DNA from: Stenocarpella maydis
Lineage: Eukaryota; Ascomycota; Sordariomycetes; Diaporthales; Diaporthaceae
Length of the DNA: 64,000 nucleotides
Direction: 5' to 3'
NCBI GenBank assembly: GCA_002270565.1
Contig: NQMI01000004.1
Location: 749,065 to 813,064, forward strand
A program made the position numbers and the translations under genes. The notes under the pieces were generated by a model that saw only the letters and a program-made list of their open reading frames with translations, searched no databases and was not told where the DNA came from. Shown here one piece after another: positions 3,710 through 61,325 of the stretch (position 1 is the first letter of the stretch; every line of letters starts with the position of its first letter).

Positions 3710-4154
3710 TCAAGCGTGTGAAAGGGTGGTCACCTTCTGTGTTCGCCTTGTACCACTCCGGAGCTCATGTAAAGGCGGTTGGCCAGAACTAGCATGAATA
3801 AGAGAGGCAAGGTCGGGGTAGATGCTAAGAGATTCTGATATATTCTGGAGCTGCCATAGTGTGAAGCTGGGGTCGTATTCGAACTTAATATCCAAAAAAA
3901 AGCTCGTAACTATCTCCACAATGGCCTTCCCTCCAGCTCGGATTGTCATATGTGGCCTTATTCGTGTAGGCACCAGACCGCCACCCGGTGTAATAGCTAC
4001 GAAGAGGCCCTGCCACTCATTCACTCGTCGTTGAACTACCTGCAAGTCGACTGATGACGAGTCGGGTTTGAAAAGCACCCCAACATTCATAGTGTAAAGG
4101 GAATCTCTCCATGCTAGAAGAACAGCATTGCTGGCAGAAGCTTGACTTTGTGTT

Positions 4155-4162
4155 ATATTCAA
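4155..4162. repeat. Target-site duplication, left copy
   Basis: ATATTCAA immediately left of the terminal inverted repeat. The identical 8-mer follows the right end at 7171-7178. It lies within the broken BBE frame. Confidence 0.85.
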
Positions 4163-4205
4163 GAAAACGGATATTCGCACCGGCAAAAAGGGATGGCGCA
4201 CCGGT
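4163..4205 (+). repeat. Left terminal inverted repeat of the MULE
   Basis: Starts GAAAACGGATATTCGCACCG. It pairs with the reverse complement of 7128-7170 over 43 positions, with two adjacent differences (CG against TA). Confidence 0.9.
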
Positions 4206-7127
4206 GGGTCTGCTGCAGCCAATCAGAAGCGTTTATTTGACCCACCTTCAACTACACTTCACCACCCGAATAGTGCTTTTTGTAGCTGCACTACCTACTG
4301 CTTTGCAACGCCTCTATCGTCACCAACTTCTCAACGACCACCCTTTATCAACGCTTTAATGCATTAATTAAATTTTCATTAGGATTAATCGTTTTTACAT
4401 TAAAAAGACCCCCTAGTCGCTCAGATATCAATTTTTCAGCATTGCGGTGATAGCGCAGCAACCTGATTACTTAGGTCTCAAGGCGCAGTGGCAGATTAAC
4501 TATATCAACTGGAACAATAACATCACTATAGCAAACTATCATCAACTAGCACTTTCTAACCCTCCTAGCTACTTAAAACTTTTTCATGATTGATATAATA
4601 CCTATAAGGACCTCAAGGCTGATTTAGATGAAGCCATGAAGGCTGCTAGCTTTGTAATGGTAACCAGAAGGTTAGAGGATAAGTAGGTGATATTAGAGTG
4701 CAGCTGAGGTGCTCAGCAGCCCTCAACTGCAACCACCACTAATGCCTCCACAATCAAGGCGGGCTGCAGCTGGCGAGCCCTTACCCATACAATGAAGGCA
4801 ACATCTAGCAAATGGAAGCTTATAATCTAGGAGGGCGTATATACTTTATACGGCCCTTAGAAGGTCCCTGAAGCTGAGCGAGGCTGGGTGAAGTTATTAT
4901 AACAACATTATAATCTTCTCGCCCGTATAGCTGCAGACCCATCCCTTGCCAAGCTAAAGAAACTCAAAGCAGCCCTCCGCCAAGAGTACCTAGAGGTGCT
5001 ACTAGGGCCTAACACTATAAAGAATTGGCTTGCAGACTTTCAAAGGGCGAAGCAGGGCATCTACATACCTACCCAAGCTTTGCTGGACTAGCTTGAGAAG
5101 GAGGGCTGCTAGTATCATTAAACTGTTAACAATAAGGGCAACATTACGGGTATCTTCTGGTATATAAAGCAGCAGATTGAGTAGTTGCAAGAGCGACAAT
5201 TCTCACGGGCTATCTCGCTTAATTATACCTATTCAACAAACAATAAAAAGATGCCCTTCCTTTAGGCGATAGCAGTAACCTATATAAAGAAGATACTACC
5301 GCTATTTTAAGGCGTTGTTAATAACGAGTGAGAATCTAGCTTCTGGTAGCTTCTTAAGCAGGTTAACAAGCTTCTCTACTAATGCGGAAACAACCCTCCA
5401 AGCCTCTTTATTACTAACTATAATACTACTCTAATTAACGCCCTTAAGCACCAATTCCCTAAGGCATACCATTAGCTATATATCTTCTATATAAATATAA
5501 ACCATTATCCTTAACATTAAGAAGAAGTAGTATAAGCCGGCAATAATAAGAGCGATATTGGGAGGCCTGGAGGTAATGGCATCGGGAGCTCTGGAGGAAA
5601 ATATTATAAAGGGTGCGGAAGCTGAAGATCTTGAAGAGGATGATAAGGACCTTGCTTCCCTAATAGCACTAGCGAGAGGGAAGGCTACAGTACCCTCCCG
5701 GGTACCTAATGAGATCCCATATATTCAAACAGCCCTCTTAAACCTTATTAAGTTTATAGAGTACTCTATAGATTGTGAGGTCTATAATACGGCTTGGCAA
5801 TAGCTTCAAGAGATCTTCTTAGACCAGATAGCAATCCTCTAGTACCTTAAGACCTAGTATATTGATAAGGCGGAGGTCATCATCGCTAAATGGGCTGCCC
5901 ACTCAATCTACAGAATCCTTAACTTCAGCTTGCATATAACCTCCTCTATAGAGCAATAGCACCACTATATAAAGACCTATCTGGGCCACAGGATGAGCAA
6001 TCTTCTTTATCTAATGGAGGCTAATAAAGCTACTCTTAATGAGGCAGCTTGTGCCTTCTGTAATAAGGAGGGAAAGCAGAAGATAGTAGTACTTATAAAG
6101 TATAATGGGTAGAAGTGGCTTGGGAAGCTTATATAGTAAGTCGCTAGAGCAGCATTGGACCTTCTCGCGATAGAGCGCTAGAAGGCATTAAAGATACTTC
6201 AAAAAGAAGCCCTATGGGGGCACTACAGCCCTTCTAACTGCTACTATGCTATCTATAGTTAGTATGGCATTATCTATATGAATTATATTGCTAATAAGGA
6301 GGAGGCTTCCCTTCCCCTTAAGAAGAGCGACCTTCATGAAGCTTGGTACCTTAATCATAACCTCTGCGTTAATAACCCGCTCCTTAGTATACTATTGCTA
6401 AAGAAGGTTACCGCTATAAAGGGCAGGCCTCGGGATATCGCCACATTTGCTGGCAACAAGGAGGGCATCCTTAAGAAGCATAGGAAAGCCGTAATGGGCA
6501 AAAAGATAACCTCCAATACTACAAGTCTGGGTAGCAAAGCTAGGGATAAAATGAGGGTAATAACGGCTTTAGTATAGCGCGTGAATTCAGCCTTTAAGTA
6601 GAGCAACGTGACCCTCCAATCCCTAGATGAAGAGGACGCCTGTAGTAATAATACGCAGTATGCCGGCGTCCCTCTAAAGCAGCAGCCGGCAAGAAGGGTT
6701 ATAAAGAAGTCAACGTAGTAGCCTCGGAAGCAGAGGGCGCTAGCAGACATTATGAAGACTTCAGAAGCTAGCATACCCTTAAGCACAAAGTTAGGGGCTA
6801 AGCGGCAGCATATGGCGGCTATTAGAAGCATTAACTAGTTGCTACGGGTAGATCTGATGGTTGGGGATATCATCGGTAATAATAATGGCAACGGTGGTGA
6901 TAGTAACGATAAGGAGGAGATACTAAATAAGATTATAGTCTGTACGGACTAGATATGTAGCAAAACACTATTAATTTGAGCGATTGGCGCTGTAGCAGGC
7001 ATCGTGATGGTGACATTTGCTGTAGCGGTGATGGGGACATACGGCTATATTGGCAAAAACGTTAAAATAATAGTGCATATAGTGTTTTTGGTGGTGCAAA
7101 TTGTCTGTGCGTTGGGCCCCTGCATGT

Positions 7128-7170
7128 ACCGGTGTACCATCCCTTTTTGCCGGTGCGAATATCCGTTTTC
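7128..7170 (-). repeat. Right terminal inverted repeat of the MULE
   Basis: Reverse complement of the left repeat with two mismatches. The right target-site copy follows it directly. Confidence 0.9.
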
Positions 7171-7178
7171 ATATTCAA
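7171..7178. repeat. Target-site duplication, right copy
   Basis: ATATTCAA, identical to 4155-4162. Confidence 0.85.
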
Positions 7179-8582
7179 CGTATTACCACTGATACGTTTA
7201 ATGGGAAGTCAGAGTCTTCCGCGATTTAACTAGACACAGCAATCAGCTCCGGTAGGCGTTCCTCAATTGTTGATCGTGGGATCAGGCGACCACCGAGAGT
7301 GTTGTCGGTCGTGTACACCTTGGTAGGGAAAGTGTAGTCTTGATAATGGGTATAGAAGCTAGAGTGAATCTTAGTGTAAAACTTCGTGAGAGATATGCCG
7401 AAGCTTTCGAAATGTTGAACAAATGGAGTCAAAGCATCTTCGAGCTGGGATGGTGTGCCTCCGGGAAGTGTAGCCACGTCGAGAGAGAATGCTTGGTTAT
7501 CGAACCCCCAGGACATTACTAACCCAGGGATATCGTTCAGGGTCAGAATATGGGTCTGAAACGCGGTGATAGCATCCCAATCAGAGTCTGAGTCGATATT
7601 AGCAAAGGCTAGAGTTGCCCCGGCTGTTGGCCCGTCAGCGTAGGCTTTGACCGTCAACGACAGAACCACAGCGTAGGTACCTCCTCCACCACCACTCAAA
7701 GCCCAGTACAGGTCGGATTTCTCTCCAGGAGAAGCTGTCAAGTGACTGCAGTCTATAGTTACTACCTCAAACTCCAAAGTGTTGTCGGAAGCTAGTCCAG
7801 AGCTCGCTGCCAGAGGCCCATGTCCGCCGCCTTGGACGTAGCCTCCAGCCAAACCAATGGCAGGGCAATAGCTACCCACAACACGAAGCCGGCGATCCGC
7901 TGAAGCAGCAAACGCTTCCGAGAACTAGGCGCTGGCACCAACCTTGAGGGCTGGTCTGGTGTAGTAAGGACTTCCGTGATCGACAAACGACATGGTGTTG
8001 AGATGATGTGTCCATAGCGCCAAGGATCCTCGAGCAGATGATCGCCCAATGTAGTCATGGCCCGTGTTTTTAATGGAAATCCGGATTTTGTTGTCTCTGG
8101 AAAAGTCGAGCCCGGCTATGGCAGTCTCTGGGCTATCCATGTCCAACGCGTAAACCGCACATGCAATGTTGCCGAGCGAGCAACCAGACCGTGGTGCCGA
8201 AAATGGACTACATGATTTATTCAGCCAGCACGGGACATGGTGTGCACTAGATATTCATAGCTATCAACGCTTCAGTATAGTATCGTATCGAAAAAGCAAG
8301 GTTGACCAACTATGTCAGCGGTGACGACCATGTACTCTGTATGGTGACACACACATCGCTTCCTGGTTCACTGTAGCAAGCAATGGCTTTGGGGATGCTC
8401 TTGATGAGTCTGTCTCCAGTTGTTTCGTTTAAACGAGTCCACTGCTCGTCCGAAGGCCATCCAGAATCTCCAGGAAGATAGCGGCAGGGCCCATTGGATC
8501 GTTGTGGACGACCAGCCGCTCCCAGTGCCAACGCAGCAAATAAAAGGGCAAGCCCGGGCTGGCGACCACGAATTCCAGCCAT

Positions 8583-39534: not shown

Positions 39535-42194
39535 GCAGTTCCGCCGAGCTACCGTGGCCATGAATGGACAGACCCTTCTGAGTTGGACGTGCTGGCTTTG
39601 ACTTGATCATGCCCAGGTACTCCTCTATCTGAGGGGAAAGAACAGTTGTGGCAGCGTGTAGGACTTTGGGGGGGGGGGGAGTAGGCTATAAAAATTAGCT
39701 CAAATTCCTCGGCCAGCAATTGCTAGCCGAAGAAAGCCAAGGGATAGCCGACTATTGTACTGTATATAGGAGGGCTGATTGCCCACCTTCAAGTAGTCTG
39801 AATATACTTATTATCATCCCCAAATTCTTACAGAGGCGCGCTAGCTACCCTCCGTTTCGCCTGACATGCCAGGGTTAGGAGTGCCACCGAGGAACCCCTG
39901 GCGATCAGTAGTGTACCTAGGCACCTAGGTTCTTAAGTACAAATCGTGCTTCAAGCATCAGTGCTGGGAATACCATACCTAACTGGGCACCTAGGTACTT
40001 GTGTAATTTAAGGAGGTAGGCAATAATGGAGGTTCACATCAGCATCTGTGTTGTAGGTATATGTGTACGGTGTATGTGTGGATGCGTGTGTGTAGGTGCA
40101 CTCCTCCCCCCTTCTCTCTCTGTGTGTGTACGTATGTGTGTAGGTATATGCGTGTATTTGTTATGCCCATATGTGTTGTAGAGGTATATACTTAGATATT
40201 GTAATTGTTACCAGTACCTAGTTAGGTGTAGTATAGAGTCTAAAGTTTGCTGTGAGTCATGGACAATGGCTGTAGATGGTGTACTCTGGGTTTACCTCTA
40301 TACCCTCTCGCTTTTGCTTCGCAAATATCTGTCTTCTTACACGGAGGCTTCACTGACCAAATAACCAGAGTCTACACAGTATGTAAGTAGTTCTGTTGGC
40401 CAGGTCTATAGCCAGAAATGACACTGTGATAGGACCAATGCAGGAGAATAACATTGTCTCAGCAGCGTGAAGCGCTTATAAGCCCAGTCGTTCTTTCAGC
40501 CAAGCTGGCGTAACATGATCTTGAATGCTCAATCTACCAGTATTACACAAGGAACTGCTGATAGTATGAGCGGCATTTAGCTTGGACAAGTGTATAGCCA
40601 ACTATAGGAGAGGCTTACACGTAACTAAGGCCGGTAGAAACAACGGAAACTGTATTCTAGCTGGCTTACGGCCGACTCGGTTTGTTCTTGCGTCATCTAA
40701 TCCAGTGGTGAACATATATATCATACTGAACATATTTTCTTTCAACATGCTCAATGATTCGGGGGCTTCTTTAGGTAAGAAAGTAGTAGGGTCACGAGGA
40801 ATTGATATGAGAGTATGTTATACGTACTTTGCCCTCAGAGTGACCTTGTCCGTGTAAAACTTTCTTTGGAAACGCTTACCAGAACCCTTAGAAGCTGACA
40901 AGAGAGCGTACCTTGCTTGGTGAACCATCTGTCATGGGATCCATGAGCGGCCACTGCTGCACGCAGAGAAATATGCATAGACTCCTATGCATCGGTTATC
41001 TGGAGGCGGGAGGGTAGGGAGAAGACGCTTATGGAATCTTTATATCCAATACATATCTAACATATCAACAGACCCAGTGTATGGGTAAGAAAGAGCAACA
41101 TTTACCACGTAACTCAAGCATAGCCGTGAGAACTCGTTGCAAGTTCGGGTCACTCTCGTCTGCGCTTGTTTGAGTACCTAGGTAGTCCTGTACAAGATCA
41201 TACCGTCTCCTTGATATTTGTCTGCCCACATATACTACCTAATTATTATGCGGCGATCTGTGAGAGTCCCAAGCTCGCAAATAACAAGACTTGGGCGTCC
41301 ACGTATCCTTTCCGCGAGCTGAACTGAGCCCAGCCCTAATCTACCTTGGTATGTAGGCGGTCATCTTCCAAGGGCCGTTAGGACCCTCGCCCCGCTGTTC
41401 CGGGTCCTGTTCTTTCTCATCTCCCACAAGGCTGCAATAGCAGGTGGTTTCTGTACTCCGCAGATCTTTGTCCGTTCTTGTGTCAGAATTTGGAGCGATT
41501 CCTCGCACCCGTCGGATCTTATTTGGACACCTTTATCATGCATTTATCGTATCATCCCGCGCGCAGCCAAGCAGTGTGACAGTACCACGTTACTGACTTG
41601 CAGCTGCTCTGTCTGGGTCCGGGGTAGGACGGCTCATTTAGAAGGCTCGCACTAGCGGAAGAAAAGGTTGAAGGAACCGCCTTGACGTCGTATTTAGCCG
41701 GATTCTTCCAGGCCCAGCGCGGCGCTCCCACTGGCTCACCGCCGGCCGCTTCTCCTTTCGTCGGTTTGATGACCCGAAAGCCAGGGCTGGGTATGGGGTT
41801 CTGGCAGCGCCAAGGTGGCCAGCTCCCGCCAAGGCGCCGGTAATTGAACCGTATTTGATGATGGCGTGGCCTCTCACTCGCTGGGTCGCACTCCAGGATT
41901 TGTGACCCCGCATGCTCGAGGATTGTTCCCCGGATTGTTAATGATGGGCCTGTCCTTAGCGTGGTGTCCCAGAAACGTGGGCCACGAGGTCAGCCTCGGA
42001 GCCTAACTCAGATTCTTTTCAGATATAACTCATATATCACGGGCTACGCCCCCTTCAACGTGATGTGCTAGGCCGTATGCTTCAGCTTCAGCCTGTATAG
42101 TCCTACTGACTGGACCCACCGGCCGACAGCATACGAAACGGATCACTGAAGCCCTTGTATAGTATTCCCCGAACAGTCAGTGTGCACCTCCAAA
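39535..42194. other. Gene-poor spacer before the sugar transporter
   Basis: Contains a possible solo LTR (39645-39832), ACCTAGGT motifs (39923, 39989, 41175), and a GT-rich stretch (40050-40160). Frames are under about 90 codons. No gene seen. Confidence 0.4.
39645..39832 (+). repeat. Possible solo LTR remnant
   Basis: Begins TGTGGCAGCG and ends ATTCTTACA. It contains CTATAAAA, a second TATA-like GTATATAGG and a U5-like run TATACTTATTATCATCC. The TG...CA ends are seen, but I found no target-site duplication and no second copy in the window. Confidence 0.25.
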
Positions 42195-58772: not shown

Positions 58773-61325
58773 ATGAGCACTCGAAACAGCAAGGGTTCGT
58801 CAGACTATGATCCCTTTAGCAATGAAAACGAGGTCAGAGCCACAATCCGACAAGCTTTAAAATCACTGCTAACCAAAGAATAACAGAGTGACGGGATTGA
58901 CCTGATTGACCTTACTGGTGATGATGTGTTTTGCCATGACGACCTTCAAAAAGCTCTACGGATCAACAAGTCTCTGAGAAATTATGTCTTGAATGAAGAC
59001 TACCGATCGTTGCAGCACATAAAAATAGGCAAAAGCATCCATGAAATCGGCCACTTTGTCGAGCTTCGTGAGCCCATGCGCGCACACGATGTAAGTGACG
59101 TCCATCCTTGCTCAGCGAGGCAGCCCAGGACGGAAAGACAAGTAGCTAAAGAGAAACAACAGATCGAATTCATCGAGATCATATCCATACACTTTCACGA
59201 CAAGACTGAGGATTACATCATCCGCGGCCTTCCATATGCCCGTACCCGAAACCTCGACGGTCGTCTCCCACGGAAGCAAAACGAAGTCTGCCTGGTCCTG
59301 GAGATTGACGCCAGCGATGAGCGTCCGGATGAGCAGCAAGCACTGCGCGAGATCAGCCCCGAGGACCTACTGAGAAGGAGGATCCTCACCAAGACGAACA
59401 AGTCGTTTCCTCACTGTCGCTTCGACAAGATAGCGTATGCCACGACGAAGCAGAGAGAGGAGCAGGCGCCGCTCTGCTGCAGGTGGAAGATGCGCGCGGT
59501 GTACAACGACGCCTCCAAGAGACGCATGGGTCATATCCGAGGCCTGGCTGTCGAGCACTTCTCTGAGCGCGACAGCTGCACGGTTAAGAGGCGGAACCTC
59601 GGTATTGACAAGGAGCGTTCCCGCGAGTGGCGCGGTGAGACAATACTCGGCGGGTCGACATTCTCCGAGCCTGAACCCAATCGCGATGAATACCAGAGCC
59701 AGGATATCAAACCTGCGCGGGCGCGGCGCTATGCCCTTGCGGATGTCTCTGCAGGCGCTGGTGGTGCTTCCCGCGGGGCTCAGATGGCAGGTCTGGTGGT
59801 TGTACTGGCATCTGAGGGCAGCAATCACTCTTGCAGCAGCTACCGGGCAAACTTCCCAGAGATCGAGCTTTCTCAGATGGAAACCTCCCAGTTCGCCTCA
59901 GATGGAGCCCAGCGGCCTGTTGATATCCTTTGGATATCTTCTTCGGCCCTGACCGAGGCGGGCGTCGACCCCGGAGCTGCCAGCAAGATGTGCGAGAATC
60001 TGCTCAGGAAGTTTCTCCCGCGATTTGTTATCATGGATCAGCCTCCTACCGTAACCGGCGAGAGAAACGCTTCCTTCCTCAATGCAATCATTCTGAGCCT
60101 CGCCGAGCTGGGCTACTCTTGCCAGTGCGACGCCGTCCAGATGGCTGAGTATGGCCTCCCCAAGATGCGCAAGCGGTCCATCCTGATCGGCGCAGGCCCG
60201 GGGGAGACACTGCCCTCATGGCCTACAGCAACTCACAGCGCGAGTCCGACTGGCGATCAGAAGCCTCTCGTCACCGAGAGAGATGCTATCAGTGGCCTCA
60301 CCCCTACTCTCCACTCACTGCACAATCCAGGAGATATGCCGGTGCTGAACCGGGAGGTACGGGACGGGGACGGGCCGATCAACACTGTAATCAACGCAAA
60401 CGGCTCGACTCATAGCCATCCGGACGGAGAGCGCGACTTTACGCTTAGGGAGCTTGCATGTTTCCAAGGCTTTCCGACCTACCACCGTTTCGAGGGCTCA
60501 TACGTCAAGAAACAGATTGCGCATGCGTTTCCTCCAGTGGTCGCCATGGCTTTCTGCCAGCACCTCCGGCAGCACATGGAGGAGGTTGATGGCGTTCAGT
60601 ACACCCAGGCCAAGCATGTTGGGGACGGAGATAATTCTGCTTCATCTCCAGACCCCAGCAACGAGGCATTGATCGATGAGTCATCAGGTATCCCGATCGA
60701 TCAGGTCGGGCCAGACAAGACTCGAAATGTGCCCAGCAATGAATCTTGTACCAGAACCCCGAGCCGACAGCAGATTGAGCTGCCCACCAGAGCTGCAGGT
60801 CCACAACGGAGCGCAGGGGCTGCCCTGCCCTCACCGTTTCAAATGTCTCCCACGACATCTTCAACCCGCCTGACAATGTCCCCAAAGGCTTGGTCGAATG
60901 CCGAGACGGCGAGATCGTCCTCGGCGTCACTCACTGCCCCGTCTTTCTGCGCGCTACCGACACCTTCTAACGGCGAGCGAGTTCCCGCCGGAGGACATGC
61001 CGAAGAGTTCAAGCTGAAACGAGGACGGGACGAGTTCGAGGAGCCAGGGTATGATGGCGGCGACGACGACGAGGGTGGACCCCTGACAATCCAGACACCA
61101 AGCAAGCGCCCCCGGCTCTCCCATCCGATGGGGGCCGAGAAGTCCAGCCGGGACTGGTCCCACGCGGTCTCGGCCTTTCTGGACGGTGCGGCTGGCGGTG
61201 CCGAGGATGACGGTGCTGATGGGCGGGAGGGCAGCAGCCCAGACGATGAGCTGACTGACATCCTGGGGCGGGACCTTTGGGACCTGGCCCGGCAGTGCAG
61301 CGGTAGCTCAGATGGCGAGGTTTGA
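58773..61325 (+). CDS. rid: RID/Masc1-type DNA cytosine methyltransferase homologue lacking the catalytic Pro-Cys motif
   Basis: Exons 58773-58832 and 58887-61325 (54-nt intron) give 832 residues, close to Neurospora RID (about 845). The N-terminus holds a SUMO-interaction-like GIDLIDLTGDD (23-33) and a basic region. Motif I is LADVSAGAGGASRGAQMAGL (about 305-325), the AdoMet site. Where family members have a Pro-Pro-Cys-Gln loop after 'VDIL..S', this protein reads VDILWISSSALTEAGVDPGA (about 365-384), with no Pro-Cys and a shorter loop. The Glu-Gln-Thr (motif VI) position is MDQPPT. Motif VIII is AEYGLPKMRKRSILIGAGPG. Motifs IX-X are FTLRELACFQGFP and KKQIAHAFPPVVA (about 538-572). A 260-residue acidic tail has a KRPR basic patch. 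The frame is fully open, so a non-catalytic role is possible. Whether AdoMet or DNA is bound is untested. Confidence 0.85.

Follow-up and report, generated by a model that had tools for sequence, protein, structure and literature searches.

What is left for a RID-type DNA methyltransferase to do once its catalytic loop has gone? The question is raised by a gene of Stenocarpella maydis in a 64,000-nucleotide stretch of contig NQMI01000004.1 (positions 749,065 to 813,064; assembly GCA_002270565.1, 53.5 Mb; contig label G000:C246), which was analysed as a whole and is called the window here. The gene occupies positions 58773-61325 of the window, on the + strand, as do all of its parts named below. 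RID is required for repeat-induced point mutation (RIP) in Neurospora, and in the known chemistry of the family the Cys of the Pro-Cys loop attacks C6 of cytosine. The gene belongs to an old loop-less branch within the Diaporthales RIDs, which occurs in Diaporthe and one Cytospora beside RIDs with catalytic motifs and in which the reading frame and the non-catalytic parts have been conserved. The status of the protein as a pseudoenzyme is well supported, and we favour the reading that it is an old, maintained paralogue of RID, probably acting as a non-catalytic DNA- or chromatin-binding factor.

Gene model and catalytic motifs

The gene is of the RID/Masc1 type and has two exons. Exon 1 (58773-58832) starts with the ATG at 58773 and encodes an N-terminus like that of the relative P0011 and other homologues; exon 2 (58887-61325) is open to the stop codon that ends the gene. 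Read unspliced, the frame holds a single stop, the TAA of codon 37 (58881-58883), downstream of which it is open through to the end. This TAA lies inside a putative 54-nt GT-AG intron (58833-58886) that contains a CTAAC branch-like site; its removal yields 832 amino acids, in agreement with the RID-type protein of 832 codons proposed in the initial annotation. The intron is predicted from sequence and homology, and its junction agrees with the N-termini of homologues (DPFSNENE/SDGIDLIDLTGDD in the window protein, DPFINFSE-QLDGIALIDLTADD in P0011). The product matches the C5 cytosine methylase domain of Pfam (PF00145) with 70 bits, the cut-off being 22.

A search with the window protein returned 44 matches, 34 of which (P0001-P0034) lack the PCQ loop in the alignment. 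Motifs were compared between 35 loop-less proteins (the window protein and these 34) and 128 others (two proteins of the same genome and 126 listed matches), after exclusion of P0043, P0044, P0163 and P0164, low-scoring proteins with PCQ and ENV and a bacterial-type look. The search with a PPCQ profile contributed the best 120 of 301 matches, and further loop-less RIDs elsewhere may have been missed.

At motif IV the SPPCQ catalytic loop is replaced by the shortened VDILWISSSALTEAGVDP (59919-59972). PCQ occurs at this site in 0 of the 35 loop-less proteins, compared with PPCQ in all 128 of the other RIDs among the matches listed. The initial annotation had read the Pro-Pro-Cys-Gln loop as gone, and its absence stands: since all 34 of the closest homologues found likewise lack the loop, none showing a normal Pro-Cys, the loss is neither a sequencing error nor chance. 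Restoration of the loop through another frame or through splicing was considered and set aside, the loss being common to all 34 relatives found. Measured from the Asp of motif IV to the Glu of motif VI, 32 of the 35 loop-less proteins have a stretch of 37-41 residues and the remaining three have 44, 50 and 56; 127 of the 128 listed other RIDs have 47-50, the last of which, with 24, is gapped. What is left of the loop differs among the proteins, with SPPFK in P0029 and P0030, SPTLQ in the Cytospora protein, and SSSAL-like residues the commonest among the rest. This fits a single early shortening with loss of the Cys and drift afterwards, an order that we infer.

Motif VI, described as EQT/EET in the RID family in the accessible text of PMC6709928, is altered to MDQPPT (60033-60050), as the initial annotation had it; the window protein has DQP at this site, and the Thr is missing in 35/35 loop-less rows. 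Motif I (ALADVSAGAGGASRG, 59733-59777) retains its glycines, and its Phe has become Ser; this Phe is missing in 34/35 loop-less proteins versus 0/128 listed others. Motif VIII, GLPKMRKR (60153-60176), retains both Arg, with PQxRxR changed to PKMRKR; the Gln-to-Lys change is found in the window protein alone of the 35. Motif IX (TLRELACFQGFP, 60441-60476) is conserved. In motif X, KKQIAHAFPP (60507-60536), the QIGN of the family has become QIAH, both G and N being changed, and the Asn is missing in 11/35 loop-less proteins versus 0/128 listed others. The motif III Asp is missing in 25/35, yet also in 30/128 of the listed others. Given the loss of the Pro and the Cys, the altered motif VI and the drift at positions on the S-adenosylmethionine (AdoMet) side, we infer with good support that the protein cannot methylate cytosine through the known chemistry, which is what had been claimed for it.

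The loop-less branch and its catalytic paralogues

Eight of the 34 loop-less relatives carry an organism name (Diaporthe citri, D. amygdali, D. ampelina, D. batatas, D. australafricana, D. ilicicola, D. sp. PMI_573 and Cytospora schulzeri); the other 26 carry none. They are predicted proteins of 499-845 amino acids, many of them partial gene models, and the nearest are 61-65% identical to the window protein. A loop-less profile found no loop-less RID beyond P0001-P0034, and no relative came from a scan of viral contigs. The protein searches gave no loop-less match named from Cryphonectria or Gnomoniopsis, whose genomes were not searched for absence. Database names already given to loop-less proteins include 'putative rip defective' (P0011) and DNA (cytosine-5-)-methyltransferase (P0008), and annotators should be aware that the capacity for RIP in Diaporthales can be overestimated when RID genes are simply counted. 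P0008 is a D. amygdali protein; its presence contrasts with the accessible text of PMC12526002, where BLASTn gave no rid homologue in that species.

Trees were built without the motif IV columns on chosen subsets of 53 and 45 of the 163 rows. The window protein falls among RID proteins on them, and the loop-less rows form one clade (Shimodaira-Hasegawa-like approximate likelihood ratio test, SH-aLRT, 100 in the 53-row tree; 100/100 in the 45-row tree) that includes both the Diaporthe and the C. schulzeri proteins and nests in a Diaporthales RID clade (SH-aLRT 99 and 100/99, respectively). A second clade, PPCQ-a, spans Cryphonectria, Gnomoniopsis, Cytospora and Diaporthe. On both trees the S. 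maydis PPCQ-a protein groups within the Diaporthe proteins. Since the loop-less clade falls outside this multi-family clade, the duplication is probably older than the split of the families represented in it. A four-member PPCQ-b clade joins the loop-less clade at only 92/82 (45-row tree), which does not fix the order of duplication.

In the S. maydis genome PF00145 gave nine matches on six contigs, interpreted as six genes. Two of them, L010 on C295 and L012 on C260, encode RIDs with PPCQ, EQT and QIGN; by their motifs they would be the catalytic paralogues expected beside an inactive one, so that the second RID envisaged for this genome is joined by a third. A search of the genome with the window protein (E up to 1e-5) recovered only the window protein, L010 and L012. 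The remaining genes we take, from order and motifs, to be DIM-2-like (L011), DNMT5-like with an SNF2 fusion (L013) and bacterial-type (L009). L013 (3-5054, G000:C265) has TSCVDFS at motif IV, without the usual Pro before the Cys. L009 (3084-4178, G000:C134) has FPCQSISRQG, scores 154 bits with PF00145 and is split over two frames; it is either a horizontal gene or a contaminant. L010, the PPCQ-a RID (1251 amino acids), carries a tail some 600 residues long, and that of its D. citri orthologue P0047 (1350 amino acids) contains a ubiquitin-interaction motif just below threshold; the listed RID of Neurospora intermedia has 839 amino acids.

RIP was sampled from transposon loci L015-L074, the best 30 of the scored list of each family (RVT_1 and DDE_1). 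Nine RVT_1 loci of contig C312, which alone gave 0 pairs, were excluded as mitochondrial-like: in the reverse-transcriptase frames of this contig TGA is the only in-frame stop, and it looks mitochondrial. The listed transposon matches of the genome carry numerous TAA and TAG stops. With 1.5-kb flanks included, 17 of 21 RVT_1 loci had a composite RIP index (CRI) above 0, compared with none of the 30 DDE_1 loci, and since the index was mixed, RIP was judged by C-to-T contexts in pairwise alignments. In the 21 reverse-transcriptase loci (180 pairs) the ratio of transitions to transversions was 12:1, with C against T at 0.50 in CpA, 0.47 in CpG, 0.10 in CpC and 0.12 in CpT. The DDE_1 loci (30 loci, 169 pairs) gave a weaker signal, with a ratio of 2.3:1 and values of 0.29, 0.22, 0.04 and 0.08 for the same contexts. 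From this bias, a RIP-like process has acted in the past on the sampled transposons. The C-to-T bias concerns CpA and CpG alike, compared with the CpA/TpG context that the accessible text of PMC12543289 gives for Neurospora. In the window itself, positions 4001-8000 are AT-richer, with a CRI of -0.02 and 0.20 in 2-kb steps, and only 40001-42000 is similar (0.03); the former may perhaps be what remains of a mutated repeat, close to a frame that resembles an oxidoreductase (7226-7879).

Constraint and possible roles

Neutral simulation of the coding sequence produced a mean of 7.8, 11.2 and 14.8 stops at 80, 70 and 60% amino-acid identity (minimum 2, 5 and 7; 20 runs each), and a mean of 2.1 with a minimum of 0 at 95%. 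The real gene has 0 stops after splicing, despite an end branch of 0.37 (53-row tree) or 0.32 (45-row tree) amino-acid changes per site. The window protein alters 3 of the 87 columns that are invariant in its 34 kin, compared with novel residues in 46 of the 247 variable ones, a pattern inside the range of the kin, toward its high end.

Divergence was also measured relative to PPCQ-a in the four species with both genes (S. maydis, D. citri, D. ampelina and C. schulzeri). The loop-less/PPCQ-a ratio indicates little relaxation at the N-terminus (1.11) and motifs IX-X (1.10); in the catalytic part it is 1.40 for motifs I-III, 2.37 for IV-VI and 4.15 for VI-VIII. The contrast between the catalytic motifs and the N-terminus gave p = 5e-5, the lowest attainable in 20,000 permutations, with sites taken as independent and regions chosen after the pairwise identities had been viewed. 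Single pairs scatter: between S. maydis and C. schulzeri the N-terminus identity is 0.59 for the loop-less and 0.54 for the PPCQ-a proteins. As read from these alignments, constraint is relaxed mainly at the chemistry, partly in the target recognition domain (TRD) and little at the N-terminus and motifs IX-X.

The N-terminal region (58983-59666) is almost as conserved as in the catalytic paralogue. We take it to be BAH-like from fold matches and general background; in seven proteins searched at E values up to 5, Pfam gave no BAH match. In the rows listed for the whole model, Foldseek returned the same methyltransferases with low query-length TM-scores (0.27-0.42), which we attribute to the disordered tail and domain placement. 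The C-terminal tail has a predicted local distance difference test score (pLDDT) under 50 in the model and contains TPSKRPR (61095-61115), which resembles a nuclear localization signal; PSKR is present in 29/34 loop-less relatives.

Across species, then, catalytic residues are lost while the frame and the non-catalytic parts are retained, and this is the pattern of an inactive paralogue. We therefore judge it probable, by a moderate measure, that the maintained pseudoenzyme is a non-catalytic factor. Its BAH-like N-terminus, methyltransferase fold and motifs IX-X would still bind DNA, chromatin or both. In the silencing of repeats it would serve as a chromatin factor without catalysis, and could either recruit silencing partners itself or pair with the catalytic RIDs or DIM-2. 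According to the accessible text of a review (PMC13297926), RID has a heterochromatin-nucleating role independent of methyltransferase activity, and the loop-less protein may retain this half of the two reported roles.

Several observations weigh against this reading. The TRD, expected to contact DNA, is also relaxed (ratio 1.55), and the loop-less branch evolves faster than PPCQ-a; N-terminus identity is 0.62 for loop-less and 0.76 for PPCQ-a proteins between S. maydis and D. ampelina, and 0.71 and 0.82 between D. citri and D. ampelina. Compared with most of its kin, the window copy is missing more residues on the cofactor side (the Gln of motif VIII, the G and N of motif X). The predicted fold adds nothing beyond homology, its alignment having included catalytic RIDs. 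Moreover, in the accessible text of PMC6709928 RID of Podospora requires its catalytic Cys for the sexual role and a Cys-to-Ser RID fails in development, showing that loss of the Cys is not harmless to every RID function. Because that mutant fails, a non-enzymatic role cannot be all that RID does, as would be expected if labour were divided.

Such a division can be put forward tentatively: RID would have duplicated in the Diaporthales line and its functions been divided, PPCQ copies mutating repeats by RIP and the loop-less copy recognising repeats and nucleating heterochromatin non-enzymatically. If true, this natural separation of function would reveal the parts of RID with which repeats are found and silencing is recruited in the absence of chemistry. 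A RID clade that has lived without the loop offers a natural way to test the non-catalytic work of RID.

The initial annotation had offered a non-catalytic factor, a partner of an active enzyme or a very young pseudogene. The first two fit best. As a partner, the inactive protein would bind a catalytic RID or DIM-2 and stimulate or position it, and would itself play no part in silencing. Paralogues with catalytic motifs in the same genome, a fold that is predicted to be intact and, by analogy, DNMT3L, a catalytically inactive paralogue assisting DNMT3A in the accessible text of PMC13297926, speak for this; the faster evolution of the loop-less branch than of its supposed partner PPCQ-a speaks against it, and we regard it as possible, if somewhat doubtful. 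An antagonist that occupies repeats or RIP partners, limits RIP and protects genes is improbable: competition with the catalytic RIDs is conceivable for an inactive paralogue whose binding parts are conserved, but the heavy RIP-type damage in the sampled reverse-transcriptase loci (0.50 at CpA) means that RIP has not been wholly blocked.

A decaying pseudogene, open by chance or very recently released from constraint, would account for the long end branch and for the motif VIII and X changes that are unique to the window copy or rare, and the stop simulation would miss a loss of constraint that happened very recently in this single strain. Neither stops after splicing nor even relaxation was found, however: neutral change would have brought 7.8-11.2 stops at 80-70% identity, the changes avoid columns conserved in kin, relaxation is uneven along the protein, and the loss is common to a clade that reaches Cytospora and has 34 loop-less relatives as predicted proteins, several of them partial models. 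The very young pseudogene is thus not supported, and we hold decay to be most unlikely. Equally slight is the chance of an enzyme with another nucleophile or substrate: to our knowledge the chemistry of RID itself is unproven, and the loop-less proteins keep the motif I glycines (35/35 and 34/35) and the acidic motif II residue (35/35), but the motif I Phe, the motif X Asn and, less tellingly, the motif III Asp have been lost as counted above, and the Cys between motifs IV and VI (33/35) and the Ser preceding the loop (34/35) are not new, both being present in 6/6 PPCQ RIDs compared.

Comparison with known systems

The open-licence literature, to which our search was confined (subscription papers and preprints were not covered), yielded no description of a catalytically dead RID branch. 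The window protein resembles Neurospora RID, Masc1 and PaRid in PF00145, in a BAH-like N-terminus (by fold), in its place in the tree and in a short TRD of about 76 columns. It differs from them in lacking the motif IV PCQ, the motif VI EQT and the motif I Phe, and the motif X Asn is partly lost in its branch. Within its own genome it is 40% identical to L010 over residues 87-573 and 39-42% identical to L012 in two pieces, both of which keep the catalytic motifs. Anisogramma anomala, of the same order, also has more than one rid gene; its two are both reported as methyltransferases in the accessible text of PMC10998396.

The comparison with mammalian DNMT3L draws partly on general background. 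DNMT3L is likewise a catalytically inactive paralogue beside active ones, a similar outcome reached in the DNMT3 branch and not in RID; its partnership is established, whereas for the window protein a partnership would be hypothetical.
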